64,000 nucleotides of DNA from Ruminococcaceae bacterium YAD3003 (GTDB lineage Bacteria; Bacillota; Clostridia; Saccharofermentanales; Saccharofermentanaceae), in NCBI GenBank assembly GCA_900107185.1, contig FNPA01000003.1, positions 62,001 through 126,000 of the forward strand. The letters run 5' to 3'. Positions within the stretch are counted from its first letter, which is position 1, and every line of letters starts with the position of its first letter. Positions 7,151 to 62,022 of the stretch are shown here, piece after piece. The position numbers and the translations under genes are program-made. Below the pieces are notes generated by a model. That model was not told the origin of the DNA and searched no databases. It was given only the letters and a program-made list of their open reading frames with translations.

Positions 7151-7792
7151 TTACTCGCCCCTCCCGGTTATCTTATCTAATGTATATCCGTAAGAAGGAA
7201 CGAAGTGTTCCATGAAATAATTTACTTCAGGCATGTTCATTTCGATGATGATCTTACCTGTTGCTTCTTTTGCTGCAGAGAATTCGCCGTTACCGGTACT
7301 CTCTTCCCTCAAGCATTTGATGTAAGCGGAAATCTTATCAGCGGCCTTAACCAGCTTATGTATGAGCTTATCTTCTTCAGTCGATATCTCAGGTGACAAG
7401 AGATCCATGTACAGAGCTCTCATCTCCTCATCTTCAGGAAGGAGTTCAACAAGACTGGCAGCAGCCTCGGATTCGACCTCTTTGTACGCTCTGGTAATCT
7501 CTTTGTTTCTGTACTTGATAGGTGTAGGCAGATCGCCCGTCAATATCTCTGTGCAATCGTGATAGAGAGCGTATGCCTGAACCCTGTAAGGATCAGGAAG
7601 GATAGCGCCCTCCTTACCCTGTTCAAACTTGTTATGAAGGACAGCCAGACAATGTGCGATTACTGCAACATCGAAGCTGTGCTCTTTTATGTTCTCTGTT
7701 CTGCTGTTACGCATCAGCGCCCATCTGGCGATGTACTGCATGCGGTCCAGCATAGCAAAAAATCCGTACTCTTCCCTATTATCCATTTCCAA
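7151..7792 (-). CDS. yfbR: YfbR-like HD-domain 5'-deoxynucleotidase
   Basis: 213-residue HD phosphohydrolase. The N-terminus (MLDRMQYIARWALMRNSRTE) and the EHSFDVAVIAH segment match YfbR, with the metal-binding HD pair in YALYHDCTEILTGDLPTP and a late Asp in KLVKAADKISAYIK. E. coli YfbR removes phosphate from deoxyribonucleoside 5'-monophosphates. It sits 6 bases downstream of a dNTP triphosphohydrolase gene, so both products act on the deoxynucleotide pool. The listed ATG gives MEMDNREEYGFF; the Met at codon 3 is also possible. The family is certain enough; substrate range is inferred. Confidence 0.88.
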   Translation of the reverse strand: MEMDNREEYGFFAMLDRMQYIARWALMRNSRTENIKEHSFDVAVIAHCLAVLHNKFEQGKEGAILPDPYRVQAYALYHDCTEILTGDLPTPIKYRNKEITRAYKEVESEAAASLVELLPEDEEMRALYMDLLSPEISTEEDKLIHKLVKAADKISAYIKCLREESTGNGEFSAAKEATGKIIIEMNMPEVNYFMEHFVPSYGYTLDKITGRGE

Positions 7793-7798
7793 TCTCCA

Positions 7799-9028
7799 TT
7801 AACTCTTATACATCTCGTTAAAGCATCCGACCGCAAACGAATCAGTCATTCCTGCAATGTAATCAGATACATAAATCGGAAGCGGTGTATCTATTCCTGC
7901 TTTATATTCGGGATGGTTTTTAACAAATTCAGCAAACTTTCTTATTGAAGACGATTTTGAATCTTCAGCCTTCTCAATATTCTGGACGGCCTCATAGAAC
8001 GCATCGAAAAGTCCCTCCAGCATAACATCACAATACTTCTCGTATGTCTTAACTCTTCCGGCAGTATAGATCTTTGCAACATTCTCCTTGAGAGTATGTT
8101 CCAAAGCATCACCCGCGTGATCAGACATCATGATGCAGCCCTTATCCATACTGTTCTCGATAATATCCTGAACGAGGAAATTAATGATCTCGGAATTCGA
8201 ACTGCCGATCACATCAGAAACAACAGGAACATCAAACTCACTGGCAATAACTCCTGTTCTCAATGCATCCTCTATGTCTCTTCCTACATAAGCAATCTTG
8301 TCAGCAAATCTTACAACGCAGCCTTCCATAGTGGCAGGGCCTTTGCGGTCCTTCTTCGGAATGAGATATGACAGGTCTTCCTCAGTCTTATCTTTGCAAG
8401 GTTCCAAACGTCTCTCGGAATAATACTCTCCGCAGTGTGAGATGATTCCGTCCCTTACCTCAAATGTGAGATTAAGGCCATTGCGGTCATTGTGTTTTTC
8501 AAGAATATTCAAAACACGGAGGCCGTTTGACTCGTGCTCAAAATAAAGCTTAGGATCGATCTCTTTGAGTTTCTTGTTTAATACACGTTCACCGCTGTGA
8601 CCGAAAGGAGTATGGCCTACATCGTGACCAAGGGCAATTGCTCTGATAAGGTCAACATTCAGATTCAGAGCGCTGCCGATCGTAGACGCGATATAGTCAA
8701 CATAGATAACGTGCTCTAATCTCGAGCAGATGTGATCGTTGGCGGGATTAAAGAAGACCTGTGTCTTGTGCTTCAGACGTCTGAATGCCTGGGAATAAAT
8801 AATCCTTCCCATATCGCGCTCATAGCAGTTTCTGATATCCCCGTCACTCTCGGGTGTAATCCTTCCTCTTGAATCAGAACACTTTGTAGCGTTGACACTC
8901 AGGAGCTTATCCTTCTGGTCCTGAATGATCTTAATCTTGGCTCTTGTGGCTTCGGATATCTTATCGGATTTACCGATACTGGCTAAGCTGTCTGCATAAA
9001 GATCCTGGAAGCTGAGATTATCTGACAT
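7799..9028 (-). CDS. dgt: Deoxyguanosinetriphosphate triphosphohydrolase (dNTPase)
   Basis: 409-residue HD-domain protein of the dGTPase/SAMHD1-like family, which hydrolyses dNTPs to deoxynucleoside and triphosphate. Visible signatures are RRLKHKTQVFFNPANDH with SRLEHVIYV (first His), the ALGHDVGHTPFGHSGE metal motif near residues 128-143 and VRFADKIAYVGRDIEDA (late Asp). ATG 9028 is chosen; the in-frame TTG one codon earlier is also compatible with the AAGGAG site. A TATAAT-like -10 lies at 9067-9062 in the 71-base gap behind pcrA, so transcription may begin here for the run through yfbR to thrC. The -35 is weak. Confidence 0.93.
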   Translation of the reverse strand: MSDNLSFQDLYADSLASIGKSDKISEATRAKIKIIQDQKDKLLSVNATKCSDSRGRITPESDGDIRNCYERDMGRIIYSQAFRRLKHKTQVFFNPANDHICSRLEHVIYVDYIASTIGSALNLNVDLIRAIALGHDVGHTPFGHSGERVLNKKLKEIDPKLYFEHESNGLRVLNILEKHNDRNGLNLTFEVRDGIISHCGEYYSERRLEPCKDKTEEDLSYLIPKKDRKGPATMEGCVVRFADKIAYVGRDIEDALRTGVIASEFDVPVVSDVIGSSNSEIINFLVQDIIENSMDKGCIMMSDHAGDALEHTLKENVAKIYTAGRVKTYEKYCDVMLEGLFDAFYEAVQNIEKAEDSKSSSIRKFAEFVKNHPEYKAGIDTPLPIYVSDYIAGMTDSFAVGCFNEMYKS

Positions 9029-9099
9029 CAATCGTAGTCTCCTTCTTACGTGCGATAAATAATTATACTACAAACGGCCTGCCCTATTCTCGGTAAAGC

Positions 9100-11538
9100 T
9101 CACGCTTTCTTAAGGCCTGCGGCGTTAGCAAGCATATTCTTACGCATTCCGTCGAAATCCACCGTAATCAGGGCATCTCCTCCGACAGGCTCAACCTTGA
9201 GAATGATTCCTTCTCCGAACCTCGGGTGAATAACCTTCATGCCCTTAACCAGATCGTCCGGGCCGAGCTGGCCTTCCCTGGCTCCTGCAGGCTTATCCTT
9301 CTCCTTCGTGAACTGTGACTTAAGAGCTGAAGAAATAGACTTCTTGGACTTCTCGCGGTTTGTCTCACCTTCAGGCACTTCCTTGGGAGTCTCACGCTTC
9401 GCTCCCATAAGGTAGAGCAGCTCAGGATTTATCTCCTTTAAGAATCTCGAAGGCCTGTTGCAGTTTGTCTGACCGAAGAGCATTCTCTGTTTGGTAAGGA
9501 CCATAAAGAGATTACGTTTAGCTCTGGTAATGGCAACATACATGAGTCTTCGCTCTTCTTCGGTATCTTCCATGCTCTGGATGGATCTGTAACTCGGGAA
9601 TACACCCTCTTCAAGACCAATAATGAAAACAGCTCCGAATTCGAGACCCTTTGCACTATGGATCGACATAAGCTTAACAAAATCGTCAGTATCGTCGAAT
9701 TCATCACCTTCTGCAAAGAGCGATGCATTTTCCAGATAAAGTCCCAGTATTCCTTCGGTAGTATCTGCCGTAGCCGTATCGAAGAAGAAATCCTCATCAA
9801 CTTCAACAGGGAATCCGTCACCTTCATCGATCTCGAGAGTATCCATGTCGACAGGTTCAGCACGGTGTGCCTTGTCATATTCTGCGGCTTCTGACAAAAG
9901 CTCTTTGAGGTTCTCGACACGGTCAATGATGTCGCCCTTTTTCTCGCGCTGCTCGGTAATCTCTTCAATGACACCTGAAGCGTTCTCGACATAATCGACG
10001 AACTGTGCGAAATCCATCTCGTTCTCTTTTAACTTATCGCGCATCTCATTTATGAGATCGGTAAATGCCAGTATCTTTGTAGCGGATCTCACGAGTTCAG
10101 GATAGTCCAATGCATGCATACTGCATTCGAACATGCTGATGTTATCGCCCAGAGCATACTGTCTGATCTTCTCGATAGTCGCATCACCGATTCCTCTTTT
10201 AGGGACATTGATGATACGCTCGAAAGCAATGTTATCCTTTGGATCGTTGATAAGTCTTAAGTAGGCCAGGATATCCTTGATCTCTTTTCTGTCATAGAAT
10301 CGCATTCCGCCATAGACCCTGAAAGGAATTCCAAGATTATGGAGCGTAGTTTCCACATTACGGGACAGCGCATTCATTCTGTATAAAACGGCGCAGTCCG
10401 AATATTTAAACTTACCCTTGTCAGCCATCATCTTGATGGTCCTTCCGACAAAGTCCGCTTCACCGGCAGAGGTATCGGAATTCATGACAATGATCTTCTC
10501 GCCTTCATCACCTTCAGTGCGGAGTTTTTTGCTCTTACGCTTCGTATTATTCGCAATGACGCAGTTGGCAGCTTCGAGGATCGTCTTGGTTGAACGGTAA
10601 TTCTCCTCGAGCTTTATGACCTGAGCACCGGGGAAATCCTTCTCAAACTTAAGGATAAGTCTTACATCTGCACCTCTGAACGAATAAATAGACTGGTCAT
10701 CGTCACCTACAACGCAGATATTGCCGTCACCTGATGCGAGCTGCATTACTGCCCTGTACTGCGGCATATTGGTATCCTGATACTCATCAACCATGATGTA
10801 TCTGAACTTCGCCCTGTACAGTTCGCAAATATCGGGATTCTGTTCCAGGAGCTTAACCATGTTTACGAGGATATCGTCGAAATCCATTGCATTATTCGCA
10901 AGGAGCTTCTCCTGGTATCTCTTGTAAATTCTCGCAACGACACCGGGGAAATAATCCTTTCCCGCCTGAATGGAATATTCCTCAACACTGATGAATTTAT
11001 TCTTTGCATTCGAGATCTCATTCTGGATACTCTTGGGCTTAAACTGGCTGTCAGCAATATCCAGTTCCTTCATCGAATCCTTAACCAGCTTCAGCTGATC
11101 GTCGGTGTCAATTATCGAGAAGTTCTGTGAATAGCCGAGAAGCTCAGCATGACGCCTCAAAATTCTCGCGAAAATGCTGTGGAACGTTCCGCACCAGATA
11201 TATTTTGACCTGTCACCGACAAGGCCTTCGATACGCTGACGCATCTCATTGGCAGCCTTATTGGTGAATGTAATAGCCAGAATGGATGACGGAGCAACAT
11301 TATGCTTCTTCATCATGTAAGCGATACGGTAAGTAATAACCCTGGTCTTACCCGAACCTGCGCCCGCAAGAATAAGGAGCGGACCGTTAAGGTGTGTTAC
11401 TGCGGCTCTCTGTTCGGCATTAAGTCCCTCAAGCATCTGTTCCGCGTCCTGATCCTGAAAAGGCTCAGCGCTCTGACCGTAAATACTCTCTAAGTCTCTG
11501 AAAAAATCGTTTGAATTATCAAATGTATTGTCTGACAA
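9100..11538 (-). CDS. pcrA: ATP-dependent DNA helicase PcrA/UvrD
   Basis: 812-residue superfamily 1A helicase. Motif Ia/I LLILAGAGSGKTRVITYR is at residues 54-71; MVDEYQDTN (motif II), VVGDDDQSIYSFRGAD (III), LEENYRST (IV), MSIHSAKGLEF (V) and MYVAITRAKR (VI) follow in order. The C-terminus ends in a Tudor-like fold (VKGMKVIHPRFGEGIILKVE) typical of PcrA, which contacts RNA polymerase. An acidic insertion at about 585-615 is longer than usual. The start is a TTG at 11538 with GGGAG upstream; a TATAAT -10 at 11576-11571 is present with a poor -35. PcrA unwinds DNA in nucleotide-excision repair and removes RecA and stalled polymerase. Confidence 0.96.
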   Translation of the reverse strand: MSDNTFDNSNDFFRDLESIYGQSAEPFQDQDAEQMLEGLNAEQRAAVTHLNGPLLILAGAGSGKTRVITYRIAYMMKKHNVAPSSILAITFTNKAANEMRQRIEGLVGDRSKYIWCGTFHSIFARILRRHAELLGYSQNFSIIDTDDQLKLVKDSMKELDIADSQFKPKSIQNEISNAKNKFISVEEYSIQAGKDYFPGVVARIYKRYQEKLLANNAMDFDDILVNMVKLLEQNPDICELYRAKFRYIMVDEYQDTNMPQYRAVMQLASGDGNICVVGDDDQSIYSFRGADVRLILKFEKDFPGAQVIKLEENYRSTKTILEAANCVIANNTKRKSKKLRTEGDEGEKIIVMNSDTSAGEADFVGRTIKMMADKGKFKYSDCAVLYRMNALSRNVETTLHNLGIPFRVYGGMRFYDRKEIKDILAYLRLINDPKDNIAFERIINVPKRGIGDATIEKIRQYALGDNISMFECSMHALDYPELVRSATKILAFTDLINEMRDKLKENEMDFAQFVDYVENASGVIEEITEQREKKGDIIDRVENLKELLSEAAEYDKAHRAEPVDMDTLEIDEGDGFPVEVDEDFFFDTATADTTEGILGLYLENASLFAEGDEFDDTDDFVKLMSIHSAKGLEFGAVFIIGLEEGVFPSYRSIQSMEDTEEERRLMYVAITRAKRNLFMVLTKQRMLFGQTNCNRPSRFLKEINPELLYLMGAKRETPKEVPEGETNREKSKKSISSALKSQFTKEKDKPAGAREGQLGPDDLVKGMKVIHPRFGEGIILKVEPVGGDALITVDFDGMRKNMLANAAGLKKA

Positions 11539-11649: not shown

Positions 11650-14265
11650 TTAATTCGGCTCACCCGGGTAAAGACTCCAATTGTCCTCATCACGGAGGTC
11701 ATCATGAACAATGAGCCAGAATCCATTGGGGTCTTCAAAGCGGTTTCCGTTAACTTCATTAACATTCGCCTCGTCAGAAGAGTAAATCAATACATCCCCT
11801 GATTTTCCGTCCTGATTAATCGGATTATTGGTAAAGGGACTGACCGGATCAGAGATCACTCCTTCAAATGCCAAAGAAGGCGTATCAGCATTTGTCATGA
11901 ACTCTTCAGAAACTGTAAAACCTGTGCTGTTAAAGTCTTTTACCAATAAAACGGGATTTACAGATTCAGCATCAAAATTCAACTCGTCCATGACCAATCC
12001 GTCAAACTGGCCCATCTCAAAGCCATGGTCTGCGACTATGATTATTCTTGTATTGTCATAAAGACCGTTCTCACGCAGATAGTCGAACCATTTTCCGAGT
12101 TCAATGCAAGCTTCCATGCTGCACTGATAAACTGCATAACTGTCGTAGTGATCCATATTCATCGTGACGCCGTCGACTGTAAAACGATCCTCGTGAGCCA
12201 GATCATAATCCGTGTTATCAACACTAACTGCCGGAGTGTAATCAGGTTCACTCAAAAGGAATACATCATGAATTGAATTGTTTGAGATAACACAGAAACA
12301 ATTCGTAGATTCTCCGCTTATGTCCGTAACATCAGTCAGCGATGCCAGAGCCGCATGATCACGTAAATGGATCTCATTGATTCCAACCTGAACATGGAGT
12401 CCGGTCTGATTACCAATATAAGTAGTCTCATCAGTATCCGAACGTAAGTATTCACCGTTGTCATAGAAAAACGGCTGCAAAGCATAAGGCATCACCTTCA
12501 TAATTCCATAACAGAAGAAGTTGCGGTTAAGGCGCTTTTCCATATCAATACCGGAATTCTCAAGAATCGGTTCTTTGTAATTGAATAATCCCGTCATGTG
12601 GTAAGCATTAATGCCTTCATAACCATTGTAAATGTTCAGATCGGGAATCCACTGATAATTGGCATATGTAGGATCTATAACACTTACATTCCATCCGTTG
12701 TTCGCAAAAATAACCGGCATTGTAAGGAGAGCCTCATTATGTTTATCAACCAAACGTTCATCCGCTCTGGCATTAATCTGTTCGGGAGTATAATCGTATC
12801 CTCCAAATAACGCAGGCGCACCGTAATTAGTGGATTTACCGAATGAGACCGTATTCGGATAATATGTAAATCCATCGAATTTCTCTGCAACATCAGGACG
12901 TTCGTTAAACAAATAAGGGATACAGGATCCGTTCATCTTATCCATCATGATTACAACTACATTTTGCCCTGTTGTTGAAAGCGGAATACTTATCTCTTCC
13001 GCAGTATTAGCATATTGGCCTGTAAAATCAGAAGTGAGAACCGAGATTCGGATTATCCTGAAAAATGAAATAAAAGAAACCGCTACGAGCGCAACAGCCA
13101 TAAGAGGACCGGTAACTTTTTTCAGTTTAACGGAAGCAAATGTGATTGCAGCTATAACCACAGCAATTACTAAAAGATTGATCAATGTATCTTTCAATGA
13201 ATAACTCATTTCATATTCATAAGTCAGCTTATTTGACAGGAAACCGAAGTTCTTGTTGAACGCTATGTAGTTAACAACACCCGAAGCTGCTACGCACGGC
13301 AAAACAACCGAGTATACTTTCTCTGCTTTTCTGGTGAGCAGACAAAATACCGGAATCCAAAGGACAAATAAGCCCAAAGCAGTAAGTGCGCTGGTCCAGA
13401 GATAGAGAATCGGATTGTGAGGAGCGGAACTGAACACATTGACCATCTCCACAGGATTTTCTGCGAGGACGTCAGCAGGGATCAAAACACCTGTAAGAAC
13501 AGCGAGCACCGCACAAGATAACATGACAGGAGAAAAACTCTTTTTCGCGAGGTTAATCTTCTTATCGGCAGACTCCGTTTTCTTATGTTTTTTAATGAGT
13601 CGGCCGACTATATTTTTTGCCATCGAGAATACGTTATTCAACAACCAGTAGAAAACCAGTCCTGAAGGTGAACGATATAACAGAACGAGAAAAATTACAG
13701 CCAGACCATAGACCTGAATCTTCGCCTTTAAAGGATGACCTTTGGTATAAATGATTCCGGATATAACATTTATCAATGTCATAAGGATCGGAAGAACATT
13801 TACAGGGAAACTGCCTATCATGAACATGGCATCTTCTTTGCCTAAATCCGATATGAATCCAAAGGTCATTTCATTCAGACTTTGCATGCCTGAGAGAAGA
13901 TTATAAGCAGCTATGAAAAAAGGAATCTGCAAAAGCAAAGAAACTGAACTCTTAAGCGCATAAACAGGTTTGTAATTGTTGAGCCTGTAATACTCCTGGA
14001 TCATGAAGAAACGTTCATCACCTTTGAACGTCTTCTTTATATGCTTGATCATCGGAGCCATTTTTGCCTGGATGTCACGATCTTCTGCCTGCAGTTCATT
14101 TGCTCTGTTATACAGAGGAAGCACAAGAAAATTAACGGCAAGACTCAGAAAGATTATTGACACGCCAACATTGCCGCAAACCCTGTTTGCAATTGAAAAC
14201 AGAACTTCAAAAAGGAGTTCGATTGGAGAGATTATTAACGTGTAAAACACTGTAAAAACTGACAA
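11650..14265 (-). CDS. YidC/Oxa1 insertase domain fused to membrane sulfatase-like domain, copy 1
   Basis: 871 residues with an unusual architecture. Residues 1-225 are a YidC/Oxa1-type insertase: membrane helix, charged cytoplasmic hairpin (ANELQAEDRDIQ, IKHIKKTFKGDERF), LLLQIPFFIAAY helix and SPSGLVFYWLLNN near the end. About five further helices (240-410) lead to an external alkaline-phosphatase-superfamily domain (420-871) like LtaS and other phosphoglycerol transferases. Metal and catalytic residues appear intact: Asp in IMMDKMNG (about 441), likely nucleophile Thr in STNYGAP (about 478) and ADHG (about 745). The domain should act on the outer face, possibly on a teichoic-acid-like polymer. 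It follows a close paralogue by 24 bases. Substrate and the reason for the fusion are unknown. Confidence 0.85.
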   Translation of the reverse strand: MSVFTVFYTLIISPIELLFEVLFSIANRVCGNVGVSIIFLSLAVNFLVLPLYNRANELQAEDRDIQAKMAPMIKHIKKTFKGDERFFMIQEYYRLNNYKPVYALKSSVSLLLQIPFFIAAYNLLSGMQSLNEMTFGFISDLGKEDAMFMIGSFPVNVLPILMTLINVISGIIYTKGHPLKAKIQVYGLAVIFLVLLYRSPSGLVFYWLLNNVFSMAKNIVGRLIKKHKKTESADKKINLAKKSFSPVMLSCAVLAVLTGVLIPADVLAENPVEMVNVFSSAPHNPILYLWTSALTALGLFVLWIPVFCLLTRKAEKVYSVVLPCVAASGVVNYIAFNKNFGFLSNKLTYEYEMSYSLKDTLINLLVIAVVIAAITFASVKLKKVTGPLMAVALVAVSFISFFRIIRISVLTSDFTGQYANTAEEISIPLSTTGQNVVVIMMDKMNGSCIPYLFNERPDVAEKFDGFTYYPNTVSFGKSTNYGAPALFGGYDYTPEQINARADERLVDKHNEALLTMPVIFANNGWNVSVIDPTYANYQWIPDLNIYNGYEGINAYHMTGLFNYKEPILENSGIDMEKRLNRNFFCYGIMKVMPYALQPFFYDNGEYLRSDTDETTYIGNQTGLHVQVGINEIHLRDHAALASLTDVTDISGESTNCFCVISNNSIHDVFLLSEPDYTPAVSVDNTDYDLAHEDRFTVDGVTMNMDHYDSYAVYQCSMEACIELGKWFDYLRENGLYDNTRIIIVADHGFEMGQFDGLVMDELNFDAESVNPVLLVKDFNSTGFTVSEEFMTNADTPSLAFEGVISDPVSPFTNNPINQDGKSGDVLIYSSDEANVNEVNGNRFEDPNGFWLIVHDDLRDEDNWSLYPGEPN

Positions 14266-14289
14266 ACTGTTTATGCTCCTTCGTAACCG

Positions 14290-16899
14290 TTAATAATCAT
14301 GGCCAATATAAGCCCAGTTATTCTCATCGCGGATATCATCATGAACTGCGAGCCAGAAACCGTTTGAATCTTCAAAGCGCGTACCGTTATTGGTATAGAT
14401 GTTTACTTCGTCTGAAGAATAGATCAGCAGGTCTCCGGACTTAACATCCTGATTGATCGGATTGTTGGTAAAAGGATTAACCGGATTATCAACATTTCCT
14501 TCAAATGCCAGTGAAGGTGTATCCGCATTTGTCATGAACTCGTCTGACACCGTAAATCCTGTGCTGTTAAAATCTTTCACCATCAGAACAGGATTAAATG
14601 ACTGCGCATCAAATCCCAAATCCGACATAAGAAGATCATCAAATTGTCCCATGCCATAACCGTGATCCGCTACGATGATAATTCTCGTATTGTCATACAA
14701 ACCGTTTTCGCGAAGATAATCGAACCATTGTCCTAAAGTAATGCACGCTTCCATGCTGCACTGATATGCAGCGTAATTACAGTAATGAGTGTCCATGTGC
14801 ATAGTCACACCATCAACAGTAAATCTGTCTTCATGGGCAGCATCATAATCTGTATTATCAACATAGAGTGCAGGAGTATAATCAGGCTCCTCAAGAAGAC
14901 AAACCTCATGGGTAGAACCGTTTGACATAACAAAGAAGCAATTTGTCGGATCGGTTGTTATTTCAGTAACTTCACACAAAGCAGTCAGAGCAGCGTGTTC
15001 CTGCAAATGCCATTCATAGAATCCGTTCTGAATATGGAGCGAATTGCCTCTGTAAGATTTGTTGTTCAGATCCATGCACAGATAATTTCCGCCATCATAA
15101 ACTGCTGCCTGCATGAAATAAGGCATAGACTTCATTAATCCGTAGCAGAACAGATTACGGTTCAATCTTGCTTCCTGATCTGCTCCAACGTCTGCAAGTT
15201 CCGGAACGCGGTCATTGAAAACGCCTGACATGTGATATGCATTGATGCCTTCGTATCCGTCATAAATACTCAGGTCCGGTTTCCACTGGTAATTGGCATA
15301 AGAAGGATCTACAACACTTACATTCCATCCGTTATTTAAAAAGATTACCGGCATAGTCAGCAGTGCTTCATTTTGCTTATCAACCAAAGGCACGTTGGAA
15401 CGGGCATTGATCTTATCAGGTGTGTAATCATATCCTCCGAACAATGCAGGCGATCCTGTGTTTGTAAATTTACCAAATGAAACCGTATTCGGATAATAAG
15501 TAAATCCATCGAACTGTTCTGCCACATCGGGACGTTCATTAAACAAATACGGGATATATTGGCCGTTCATCTTATCGATCATTAATACAACGACATTTTT
15601 GCCGGTGGAAGAGAGAGGAATGCTGACTTCCTCAGCAGTATTGCTGTATGAATAATTGTATCCTGCAGTATCTATTCCAATAGCGATAAGTCTCATGAGA
15701 GATAAGAACGAAACTGCAATAAATGCAACTACCAGCAATAGCCTTGTTGTCTTTCTCCACTTCAGGGTAATGAACACAACGAGCGCTGTGACAGCTATAA
15801 CAACTGCCAAATTGATCAGTATCTCCTTCAGTTCATAACTAATGGGGTAATCATATATCAGCTTGTTAGATAAAAATCCGAAGTTCTTATTAAACGCAAT
15901 GTAGTTAACCACGCCTGCTGCTGCCATAGCTGGAAGTACAAGAGAATATACTTTTTCAGCTTTGGGAGTAAGAACACAAAATACGGGAATCCAGATCAGA
16001 AATAAACCGATGGCTGTAACGGCACTAAAAACAATATACATCATCGGATTATGTGGATCTGCACTCAAAGTATTTGTCATCTCAGCAGCATTTTGAACTA
16101 CTACATCTGAAGGAACCATAACGCCTGTCAGTACTGCGAGTACCACACCCGAAAGAAATACCAGCGAGAAACTCTTCTTATTAAGTTCGAGTTTTGTATT
16201 TACAGGCTTATCAGCAGATTTAGAAATATGCAATTTGCCGATTATGTTTTTAACAAGTGAGAATACGTTATTCAGCAGCCAGTAAAATACCAGTCCTGAT
16301 GGTGAATGATACAGCAGGACGAGGAAGATGGCGGCAAGACCATATACCTGGATCTTTTCTCTTAAAGTATGTCCTTTGGTATAAATGATTCCTGATACGA
16401 TATTTATCAGTGTCATAAGTATCGGAAGAACATTTACAGGGAAATTTCCGATGTAAAACATTGCATCTTCTTTGGCAAGATCAGTCAGGAAAAGGAATGA
16501 CTCTCCTTGCAGGACCTTCAATCCTGACAAAAGGTCATAAGCCGCAATAAAGAACGGAATCTGTAAAAGGAGTGAGACCGTGCTTTTCAATGCATAAATC
16601 GGCTTATAGTTGTTGATGCGGTAGTATTCCTGAAGCATCATGAAACGTTCGTCACCTTTGAAGGTCTTTTTGAGATGCTTGATCATCGGTGCCATCGTTG
16701 TCTGGATCTCACGTTCTTCCGCCTGTATCTCATCTGCACGTTTATACAGAGGCAATACCAGGAAATTAACGATAAGGCTGATTACAACAATGGATAATCC
16801 CGCACTGCCGGTAAATTTATAAGCATAGTAATAGAACAGCTCAAACAAAAGCTTAAGAGGAGCTATGAATAATGAACTGATAAAAGAAATAAAAGACAT
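14290..16899 (-). CDS. YidC/Oxa1 insertase domain fused to membrane sulfatase-like domain, copy 2
   Basis: 869-residue paralogue of the downstream gene, alike from end to end (I judge well over half the residues identical), so a tandem duplication. The same parts occur at the same positions: YidC domain 1-225, central helices to about 410, sulfatase-like domain to the end. Catalytic residues are again present: Asp in LMIDKMNG (about 440), Thr in FTNTGSP (about 478), ADHG (about 745). The nucleophile loop differs (FTNTGSP against STNYGAP), and the hydrophobic link after the YidC domain is shorter in charge, so the two may have different substrates. The start lies 6 bases after the stop of the TagB-like gene. 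Both copies keeping all catalytic residues argues against one being a decaying copy. Confidence 0.85.
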   Translation of the reverse strand: MSFISFISSLFIAPLKLLFELFYYYAYKFTGSAGLSIVVISLIVNFLVLPLYKRADEIQAEEREIQTTMAPMIKHLKKTFKGDERFMMLQEYYRINNYKPIYALKSTVSLLLQIPFFIAAYDLLSGLKVLQGESFLFLTDLAKEDAMFYIGNFPVNVLPILMTLINIVSGIIYTKGHTLREKIQVYGLAAIFLVLLYHSPSGLVFYWLLNNVFSLVKNIIGKLHISKSADKPVNTKLELNKKSFSLVFLSGVVLAVLTGVMVPSDVVVQNAAEMTNTLSADPHNPMMYIVFSAVTAIGLFLIWIPVFCVLTPKAEKVYSLVLPAMAAAGVVNYIAFNKNFGFLSNKLIYDYPISYELKEILINLAVVIAVTALVVFITLKWRKTTRLLLVVAFIAVSFLSLMRLIAIGIDTAGYNYSYSNTAEEVSIPLSSTGKNVVVLMIDKMNGQYIPYLFNERPDVAEQFDGFTYYPNTVSFGKFTNTGSPALFGGYDYTPDKINARSNVPLVDKQNEALLTMPVIFLNNGWNVSVVDPSYANYQWKPDLSIYDGYEGINAYHMSGVFNDRVPELADVGADQEARLNRNLFCYGLMKSMPYFMQAAVYDGGNYLCMDLNNKSYRGNSLHIQNGFYEWHLQEHAALTALCEVTEITTDPTNCFFVMSNGSTHEVCLLEEPDYTPALYVDNTDYDAAHEDRFTVDGVTMHMDTHYCNYAAYQCSMEACITLGQWFDYLRENGLYDNTRIIIVADHGYGMGQFDDLLMSDLGFDAQSFNPVLMVKDFNSTGFTVSDEFMTNADTPSLAFEGNVDNPVNPFTNNPINQDVKSGDLLIYSSDEVNIYTNNGTRFEDSNGFWLAVHDDIRDENNWAYIGHDY

Positions 16900-16905
16900 G
16901 TTTCT

Positions 16906-18216
16906 TTAAGCTCCCTTCTTCAGTTCAAGCCTGAACTTCTTGTTCTTTGCAGGCTTTTCCTGTTTTTTGTTTTCGGAAACTTTAGCAACTACCTCATCAT
17001 ATTTTTCCATTATGAAATCAACAGTTCTCTTCGTGCCTTCGCCCATAGGTACCCAGGTTTCAGCGCGCGCCTTATCACGGCCCTTGGCAAACGACGGGTC
17101 TTCTAAACATCTGTCTATGAGGTTTTTAACATTGCTGACATTTTCTTCGTTGAGTTCAAGACCAAGTTCGGGAAGGATTCTGAATGTCCATGGTTTCTCA
17201 TCTATCCAGTAAGCATCGTAAGGCCCGATATCATACTTTGTATCTGTATAGATCAGCGGTTTATCGAAGACCAGCGTGAAATCAAAAATAATACCCGAGA
17301 AGTCTGATATGAGGATATCAGCCTGTCTGAGCACTTCAAAGTTGTCATTATCCCTGTTCCAGATTACCTTTGATTCATCGGTATATTTGGACATAAGTCT
17401 GTCCATCATATCTTTTTCCGTTATCAAAGACTGGGGGTGAGGTCTTACGATGATCTTATATCCGGTATCGATAAGAGCATCTATCAGTTTCTCACCGAAT
17501 CTTGAAAGAATGCCGCTCTTTCCCCATGATGGTGCCAGAAGTACCGTTTTCTCATGAGGACCGACATCGCCGGCAGCTTCAAGTCTCTTCTTCATTTCAT
17601 CCATATATGGAATTCCGACAAGAGGCGTTTCGCGTTCTTTTATGCCGCGCATCTTCTCAAGTTGTCTTACTTGTTTTACCTGATATTCACCCGACAGAGG
17701 CAATGCATCAAAGTGATCCGTACCAAACATACGGTACATCGATATGTCATTTGCACCATGCTGGACATGAATATAGTAATCCACGTTCTTAGAACGCTTC
17801 CACTGGAATACATCTAGGCTCGGAGTTGATGCTACTACAACATAAGCATTCAGAAGATTAAGCTTGGCAAAAGCTTTATTACCTTCTCCAAGGTATTCTC
17901 CGGTGATATATTCATACTTCTTGTCGAAAATGGGGTCATCCTTGGAACATGTGAAATACATGACCTTCTGATGTCGCTTCTCAAATTCGTTAAGAAGAGG
18001 CTCAAAGACGTTCCAATATCTCTTATGATCGGTAAATATTGCTATCGGGATCTTTTTAGCATTCGTTTTGGCATCCTTGTTACCGCTTGTACGGAACTTC
18101 ATTTTCATGATAAGAGTTCGGAAAGCAAATATAACGACTCCAAAAAGGCCGAAAATAACTGTAAATAACATTCCTCCCGTGCCGGGATCGATATATAAAG
18201 CTTTAATAAACTCCAT
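16906..18216 (-). CDS. CDP-glycerol:poly(glycerophosphate) glycerophosphotransferase-like protein (TagB/TagF family)
   Basis: 436 residues. The N-terminus is a membrane hairpin with the motif YIDPGTGGMLF (about 8-18) and a helix to about 38. From about 55 onwards it is a TagB/TagF-type transferase: HVQHGANDISMYRM, GIPYMDEM, LLAPSWGKSG, IIVRPHPQS and ILISDFSGIIFDFTLV are the family's conserved blocks. Such enzymes transfer glycerol phosphate from CDP-glycerol to a lipid-linked wall polymer on the cytoplasmic face. The open frame extends to 18234 only through a TTG; ATG 18216 with a GGAGG site 11 bases upstream is the start. It heads a three-gene unit with the two YidC-sulfatase fusions, which suggests one polymer-making or polymer-modifying pathway. 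Confidence 0.85.
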   Translation of the reverse strand: MEFIKALYIDPGTGGMLFTVIFGLFGVVIFAFRTLIMKMKFRTSGNKDAKTNAKKIPIAIFTDHKRYWNVFEPLLNEFEKRHQKVMYFTCSKDDPIFDKKYEYITGEYLGEGNKAFAKLNLLNAYVVVASTPSLDVFQWKRSKNVDYYIHVQHGANDISMYRMFGTDHFDALPLSGEYQVKQVRQLEKMRGIKERETPLVGIPYMDEMKKRLEAAGDVGPHEKTVLLAPSWGKSGILSRFGEKLIDALIDTGYKIIVRPHPQSLITEKDMMDRLMSKYTDESKVIWNRDNDNFEVLRQADILISDFSGIIFDFTLVFDKPLIYTDTKYDIGPYDAYWIDEKPWTFRILPELGLELNEENVSNVKNLIDRCLEDPSFAKGRDKARAETWVPMGEGTKRTVDFIMEKYDEVVAKVSENKKQEKPAKNKKFRLELKKGA

Positions 18217-18373
18217 ACAGCACCATACCTCCAATGAATTTTGCCGTATTTAATAGGATACCATTTTTAAACTATACTCTCTACATTACCCATAATACCG
18301 GGCATCTGAAGTCTTTTCGAAAACAGTAATTTATTCTTTATGAAAAAAAATAATAAAGGTCTATAATATCAGC

Positions 18374-61997: not shown

Positions 61998-62022
61998 TCT
62001 TCTTACAAATTAAAATTCACAA

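Follow-up and report, generated by a model that had tools for sequence, protein, structure and literature searches.

The window analysed here is a stretch of 64,000 nucleotides from Ruminococcaceae bacterium YAD3003 (contig FNPA01000003.1, forward-strand positions 62,001 to 126,000). Two adjacent genes on its minus strand, hereafter called A and B, each encode a YidC-type fold welded to an LtaS/EptA-like domain of the alkaline phosphatase (AP) superfamily, as established by profiles, structure comparison and conserved residues. A gene for a TagF-like protein precedes A. The features of the locus are the following:

14290..16899, minus strand: fusion A, 869 aa, ATG start; YidC-fold domain at about residues 1-222, five predicted helices at 241-410, AP domain at 432-869
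16204..16899, minus strand: YidC-fold domain of A with a short tail, modelled with AlphaFold; Asn45 at the groove-Arg position
11650..14265, minus strand: fusion B, 871 aa, architecture as in A; TTG start behind AAGGAG
13570..14265, minus strand: YidC-fold domain of B
16906..18216, minus strand: TagF-like (PF04464) partner, 6 bp before (upstream of) A

A YidC-type fold joined to an AP-superfamily domain

A preliminary description, drawn from the sequence alone, had reported two neighbouring genes of this composite architecture, and both open reading frames, the profiles and the structure comparison bear it out. Proteins A and B are 68% identical across 865 columns, and 28 homologues could be aligned over their full length to both. 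The YidC similarity proposed for the first 225 residues is clear. Residues 34-220 match the Pfam family 60KD_IMP (PF02096) with E-values of 8.1e-22 for A and 3e-23 for B (78.4 and 83 bits for a cut-off of 35), and the NCBIfam model TIGR03592 scores 86.4 and 89.8 bits, respectively, above its cut-off of 84.3. The Sulfatase family PF00884 is matched by B with 29.3 bits, above the cut-off of 25, and by A with 23.6 bits, slightly below it. The YidC domain of A was modelled alone with AlphaFold, with a predicted local distance difference test (pLDDT) score of 86. The model superimposes on E. coli YidC (6al2) with a Z-score of 17.8 and a deviation of 3.1 Å across 199 residues, and on B. halodurans YidC with a Z-score of 17.6, the top match outside the YidC/Oxa1 family scoring 5.6.

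Members of the YidC family carry a groove Arg, described as strictly conserved and as keeping the groove hydrated in the excerpts consulted of PMC8920935. We located the corresponding position by direct alignment to E. coli YidC, leaving out truncated fusion domains and duplicates. Of 30 canonical YidCs, 28 have Arg there, and the 72 YidC-AP fusions have Asn (69), Gln (2) or Ser (1) and therefore lack the conserved positively charged residue of the groove. The polar residues Thr163, Asn166 and Asn210 are invariant in 73/73 distinct full-length fusions, and because they are kept, the groove of the fusions is, judging from sequence, probably still hydrophilic yet uncharged. Mean column identity is 70% in the YidC domain (72 domains) and 52% in the middle and AP part (15 rows), two figures that come from different samples. 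The fusions thus resemble YidC/Oxa1 proteins in fold and in above-cut-off profile matches, and differ from them by the Asn/Gln/Ser groove, by the C-terminal part made of five helices and an AP domain, and by occurring in multiple copies beside an ordinary YidC. Separately, two loci from relatives within the order (L151 and L154, family f194) encode canonical-looking YidCs with Met or Asn in place of the groove Arg.

Five helices are predicted at residues 241-410 of A. An odd number is needed to bring the following domain outside, so the topology fits an external AP domain. Alignment with PbgA (6xlp) begins at residue 238 of A, at 14.9 Å, which is at most suggestive of middle helices of the LtaS/PbgA kind. 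Residues 432-869 of A gave Z-scores of 17-21 among the matches shown, every one of them to the AP superfamily; the structural neighbours comprise phosphonate monoester hydrolases, sulfatases, YejM, LtaP and LtaS. Entries for LtaS, LtaP, YejM and PbgA scored 17.4-19.7 (18.7 for LtaP, 17.9 for LtaS). The metal and nucleophile residues anticipated in the preliminary description were recovered as Asp442, Thr479 and Asp745-His746 in A numbering and, together with His664, they are conserved in 73/73 distinct full-length fusions. The domain thereby combines an AP fold, a candidate Thr nucleophile and an Asp-His pair, as expected for the LtaS/EptA type.

Sulfatases of the formylglycine (FGly) class use a Cys or Ser nucleophile within a C/S-x-P-x-R motif. 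The motif at Thr479 of A reads TNTGSP and Thr is present in 73/73 fusions where Cys or Ser would be expected, which rules out a classical FGly sulfatase. LtaS and EptA use a Thr nucleophile, and have a Glu where the fusions have Asp442. Profile matches to solved structures at an E-value of 0.001 were to a phosphonate monoester hydrolase and a choline-sulfatase and not to LtaS, which was matched only at 0.034 in a single-sequence search. The fusions thus share with LtaS, EptA (MCR) and YejM-PbgA a set of helices that precedes an AP domain bearing Thr and Asp-His, and differ from them by the YidC domain in front, by Asp442 and by a phosphonate monoester hydrolase as closest profile.

Distribution of the fusions and linkage to a TagF-like protein

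In the window genome (2.67 Mb, 99.9% complete), PF02096 was matched in six places, corresponding to one ordinary YidC and five fusions, three of which sit on another contig. All five PF00884 matches at an E-value of 0.001 are the fusions (5/5), three of them above the family cut-off. A short canonical YidC was also listed in 38 of the 40 relatives searched. We then counted the fusions in other genomes with a profile of their middle and AP part. Within the genus, 75 of 85 genomes match (39/46 among those of high quality), a single genome having as many as 13 matches and two of the 75 being weak cases (G337 and G363); this recurrence rules out a chance or assembly artefact. A plasmid-borne element was also discarded, as no plasmid record reached 80% query cover and the best 10 of 30 matches covered the YidC part only. 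In the class sample 10/291 genomes match, one of them weakly (G137, left out of the nine fusion genomes referred to below), and in the phylum sample 2/299 (G000 and G113). The class searches for the fusion and for the TagF-like gene scored only some candidates per genome, so that copy numbers and absences in them are approximate. Family f27 has 16 matching genomes out of 299, two of them weak (G580 and G137). We take f27 to be Lachnospiraceae because locus L021, which bears that name, clusters in the tree with a sequence from f27. Public contigs carrying a fusion come from metagenome-assembled genomes named Saccharofermentans, Ruminococcaceae, Clostridiales or Lachnospiraceae, several of them titled with rumen, omasum, rectum or faeces. 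These families belong to gut and rumen bacteria.

The TagF-like protein encoded upstream of A matches PF04464 with 51.2 bits (cut-off 22.1) and scores 17.3 bits against the TarF equivalog NF041712, for which the cut-off is 550. Its reading frame opens at a TTG at 18234; the ATG at 18216 is better placed behind GGAGG. At the N-terminus, a LYIDPGTGGM motif precedes a hydrophobic stretch, and YIDPGTG is invariant among 12 aligned members. The partner is therefore like the TagF/TarF CDP-glycerol (CDP, cytidine diphosphate) glycerophosphotransferases by its above-cut-off Pfam match and differs from them by the YIDPGTG motif, the poor TarF equivalog score and, in four loci, fusion to a YidC domain.

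A TagF-like gene lies in the same run of genes for 47 of 62 fusion clusters, or 43 of the 54 that are away from a contig edge, with gaps to the fusion ranging from -94 to 138 bp. This count excludes duplicate sequences; L007/L121 and L009/L015/L122 appear to be identical contigs from their length and gene layout. In the window genome, the four strongest of the five PF04464 matches adjoin fusions. Across the 291 class genomes, a strong stand-alone TagF-like match (E-value of 1e-171 or better) was found in 8/9 fusion genomes versus 0/282 others (Fisher p = 7.8e-15). What else matches at threshold in the class amounts to three YidC-TagF fusions (G137, G202 and G235) and a fragment in the fusion-bearing G058.

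A few loci are of particular layout. Several fusions stand in tandem around a single TagF-like gene in L010/L011 (JAFWQC010000004.1), where one fusion gene of L010 is split by a frameshift into 7237-8301 and 8262-10001 and was excluded from the domain counts. Two loci, L022 and L106, apparently represent the chromosomal site of the window, judging from gene layout and sequence starts; they show, in this order, a TrkH-like gene, one fusion and a UvrD/PcrA-like gene, with no adjacent TagF-like gene. Some fusions have uracil-DNA-glycosylase-like or DUF4854-like genes at their side, which we regard as incidental.

Four loci (L073, L074, L075 and L087) encode a YidC domain fused to a TagF-like domain instead of an AP domain; L075 is truncated where its stretch begins, and its TagF part is seen by a custom profile, not by Pfam. 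The YidC fold ends with its C-terminus in the cytosol, so a TagF-like domain can directly follow it. The groove-Arg position is Lys in these fusions (4/4). In 3/4 loci an unfused membrane sulfatase-like gene, distantly related to the AP part of the window proteins, stands beside the YidC-TagF fusion. None was seen near L087, where neither of the two upstream genes matches a Pfam family. The sulfatase-like protein of L074 starts with an AYIDPS motif and a hydrophobic stretch, resembling the N-terminus of stand-alone TagF-like proteins. Finding the same parts joined in two ways is a hallmark of joint function, and we infer that the YidC, AP and TagF-like parts act together.

In a tree of 64 rows, which used 30 of the 72 fusion domains, the YidC-AP (supports 100/100), YidC-TagF (100/99) and canonical YidC (97/96) sequences each make up one clade of an unrooted three-way split. 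Since the fusions constitute their own clade and a separate canonical copy exists, they are not plain duplicates of YidC. The TagF-like partner at 16906-18216, the swapped fusion and the five-copy family of the window genome go beyond the preliminary description.

Phosphonate and choline-type genes next to the fusions

Genes of choline-kinase, LicC-like, phosphoenolpyruvate (PEP) mutase, phosphonopyruvate decarboxylase (Ppd) or 2-aminoethylphosphonate (AEP) transaminase type were found in 10/18 Lachnospiraceae-type loci, the locus type being assigned by record title and place in the tree. Some of the LicC-like matches may be generic nucleotidyltransferases. Searching Pfam and NCBIfam with ten such neighbours identified, above cut-offs, a PEP mutase-NTP_transf_3-CTP_transf_like fusion, Ppd and PhnW. 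PEP mutase and Ppd genes occur in three Lachnospiraceae-type loci (L021, L096 and L098) and beside the YidC-TagF fusion of L087.

An operon arrangement was observed within the genus. Among 11 genus genomes with a triple-fusion PEP mutase, nine display, in this order, one or more fusion genes, the PEP mutase, an Fe-alcohol dehydrogenase (Fe-ADH), Ppd and the TagF-like gene, and the genes of this operon overlap or nearly touch. The domains were checked by Pfam and NCBIfam in L181 and by similarity in the others. The 14 stretches of this survey were picked for weak TIGR01518 matches in long frames, plus one TagD-like match from the window genome, so that 9/11 is not an unbiased survey of PEP mutases; the nine might be closely related to one another, and L190 runs to the end of its contig. 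A DedA/VTT gene comes next after the TagF-like gene in eight of the nine operons (L181, L182, L183, L185, L187, L188, L189 and L191). From what is known of these families, PEP mutase, Ppd and the dehydrogenase would together yield 2-hydroxyethylphosphonate, of which the fused cytidylyltransferase would make the cytidine monophosphate (CMP) ester.

With a PEP mutase-NTP_transf_3-CTP_transf_like protein and Ppd in an operon with the fusion, these selected loci are like the Pnt phosphonyl-tailoring clusters. The excerpts consulted of PMC6697681 name LicD-like transferases for the latter, and a search of its text gave no sulfatase, YidC or glycerophospho- term; the excerpts describe phosphonyl tailoring after installation of the C-P bond as enigmatic and the activation of AEP by CMP as shown.

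Other proteins of related composition were encountered. In the window genome, contig C7 encodes a 740-aa protein (L178:6287-8509) with NTP_transf_3, CTP_transf_like and Fe-ADH domains, resembling the PEP-mutase triple fusion with the dehydrogenase replacing the mutase. Its contig C15 (L179:201-3855) carries a fusion of a TagD-like cytidylyltransferase and a GFO/IDH oxidoreductase, adjoining a class-V aminotransferase and an ATP-grasp ligase. Three proteins of about 600 aa are encoded beside fusions (L180:8839-10641, L182:12080-13885 and L091:4269-6074); for two of them Pfam shows NTP_transf_3 together with a class I/II aminotransferase domain most similar to CobD. They are perhaps a decarboxylase and a cytidylyltransferase for a CDP-ethanolamine-like donor.

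A candidate envelope transferase and its alternatives

The preliminary description had suggested that the fused proteins serve an envelope transferase. With the TagF-like partner, and with PEP mutase, choline-kinase or cytidylyltransferase neighbours at some loci, the gene context now supports this role well, and a machine acting as an envelope phospho- or phosphono-transferase appears likely. We propose a two-gene head-group machine in which the TagF-like protein loads a lipid inside, the AP domain unloads it outside and the YidC groove passes the lipid between them; we would give this complete scheme an even chance. Its enzyme chemistry and donors are deduced from the protein families, the lipid role of the groove, the acceptor and the product being conjectural. 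The TagF-like protein would take a small phosphate or phosphonate head group from a CMP-activated donor, which could be CMP-hydroxyethylphosphonate in some relatives and a CDP-choline- or CDP-ethanolamine-like compound in others. The head group would be loaded at the cytosolic face onto a lipid or a lipid-linked acceptor. The YidC-fold domain, presumably no longer a general insertase, would pass the loaded lipid out and the unloaded lipid back through its hydrophilic groove. Finally, the fused AP domain, with its candidate Thr nucleophile and metal-ligand-like Asp and His residues, would transfer the group to an envelope acceptor outside, in the manner of LtaS and EptA.

The use of the groove as the lipid path is the more tentative part of the scheme, to which we give somewhat less than an even chance. 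That the fold had been recruited as a lipid or polymer groove was already suggested in the preliminary description; it is possible, and is favoured by the loss of the groove Arg and by the scrambling of lipids in vitro by E. coli YidC and Oxa1, as stated in the excerpts consulted of PMC10491306. A more specific version, in which the YidC fold has left protein insertion to become a dedicated lipid scramblase in a head-group shuttle of CMP-hydroxyethylphosphonate or another small phospho-alcohol and an envelope polymer is assembled or modified outside by the AP domain, strikes us as speculative and not very probable. The polymer would possibly be a poly(hydroxyethylphosphonate) analogue of teichoic acid, since the hydroxyethylphosphonate unit has a free hydroxyl. 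MprF couples head-group chemistry and flipping of a lipid within one polypeptide, as proposed here, with unrelated folds and an aminoacyl chemistry.

Several observations weigh against the proposed machine. The loss of the groove Arg is not proof of lost insertase activity: the excerpts of PMC8920935 report that E. coli R366 is dispensable if residue 517 is aromatic or hydrophilic, although YidC2 of S. mutans, with a Trp at the latter position, cannot do without the corresponding Arg; in our alignment the fusions also have a Trp (Trp207) at the position equivalent to E. coli 517. No adjacent TagF-like gene accompanies 11 of the 54 non-edge fusion clusters, and genome G221 has a fusion and no TagF-like match at an E-value of 1e-30, with 6 of 9 candidates scored. 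Of the 41 genus-type loci of the first locus set, which was not de-duplicated, only three hold genes of the CMP-activation type, against the 10/18 Lachnospiraceae-type loci given above, and no phosphonate or choline-type gene was found beside the window fusions, the PEP mutase model not having been run genome-wide. At the genome level, PEP mutase is only weakly associated with the fusion in f27 (4/14 versus 27/285, p = 0.045), and only two cases are co-located. The DedA/VTT protein could be an alternative flipping agent. TagD-type cytidylyltransferases are above cut-off in only 8/85 genus genomes; as a result, CDP-glycerol is probably not the general donor, a role for which we found no support.

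The same transferase machine might contain a YidC fold that merely holds the TagF-like and AP enzymes together, moving neither lipid nor protein. Fusion of the YidC domain to either partner, the loss of the groove Arg and a cytosolic YidC C-terminus, where the TagF-like part would sit, all fit such a scaffold. It is nevertheless rather unlikely: the YidC domain seems more conserved than the rest of the protein (on differing samples, as given above), the invariant Thr163, Asn166 and Asn210 exceed what a scaffold would appear to need, and stand-alone TagF-like proteins already have an N-terminal hydrophobic stretch of their own. The preliminary description had alternatively considered insertion of the protein's own or partner helices. 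For a specialised insertase that would place the helices downstream of it, the AP domain or the helix of the TagF-like partner in the membrane, one can point to the retained YidC fold and family match and to the E. coli mutants in which the groove Arg is not always required (excerpts of PMC8920935). Against it, an ordinary YidC is present in the window genome and a short canonical one in most relatives searched, the groove Arg is replaced in 72/72 fusions, and no explanation follows for the YidC-TagF fusion, in which the TagF part is expected in the cytosol. Besides, relatives of LtaS and EptA are not known to need such help for insertion. We consider this alternative very unlikely.

A conventional lipoteichoic acid (LTA)-type synthase, taking glycerol phosphate from phosphatidylglycerol and bearing the YidC domain as a lineage-specific add-on, would agree with the candidate Thr nucleophile, with the AP fold matches to LtaP and LtaS and with the presence of a TagF-like partner, and no stand-alone PF00884 protein was detected in the window genome. 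We consider it quite unlikely, as LtaS systems are not known to need a cytosolic TagF-like partner, and the neighbours that hint at a donor encode PEP-mutase, choline-kinase and NTP-transferase domains and are not glycerol-phosphate genes. The scarcity of TagD and the solved relatives retrieved at an E-value of 0.001, with LtaS reached only by a single-sequence search, point the same way.

No published account of such fusions was found in the titles and abstracts of the papers listed from the open literature, subscription papers and InterPro architecture pages being outside this scope, and no already characterised enzyme family of this architecture turned up there. The text of a paper on YidC evolution (PMC8675477) contains no sulfatase term, and literature on Saccharofermentans envelopes yielded nothing of use here. 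The components are known; neither their combination nor the swapped fusion appears to have been described in the literature searched.

The practical consequence for annotation is that the fusions may automatically be called plain YidC, since the NCBIfam YidC C-terminal model scores both window proteins above its cut-off. To our knowledge, the cellular use of lipid scrambling by the Oxa1 family is an open question. It becomes testable here in a defined module because the fold is welded in two ways to families of head-group enzymes. The fusions are candidate transferases for the later steps of phosphonate tailoring in rumen and gut Clostridia, and they suggest that a fold which inserts proteins has been reused to help decorate the cell surface.

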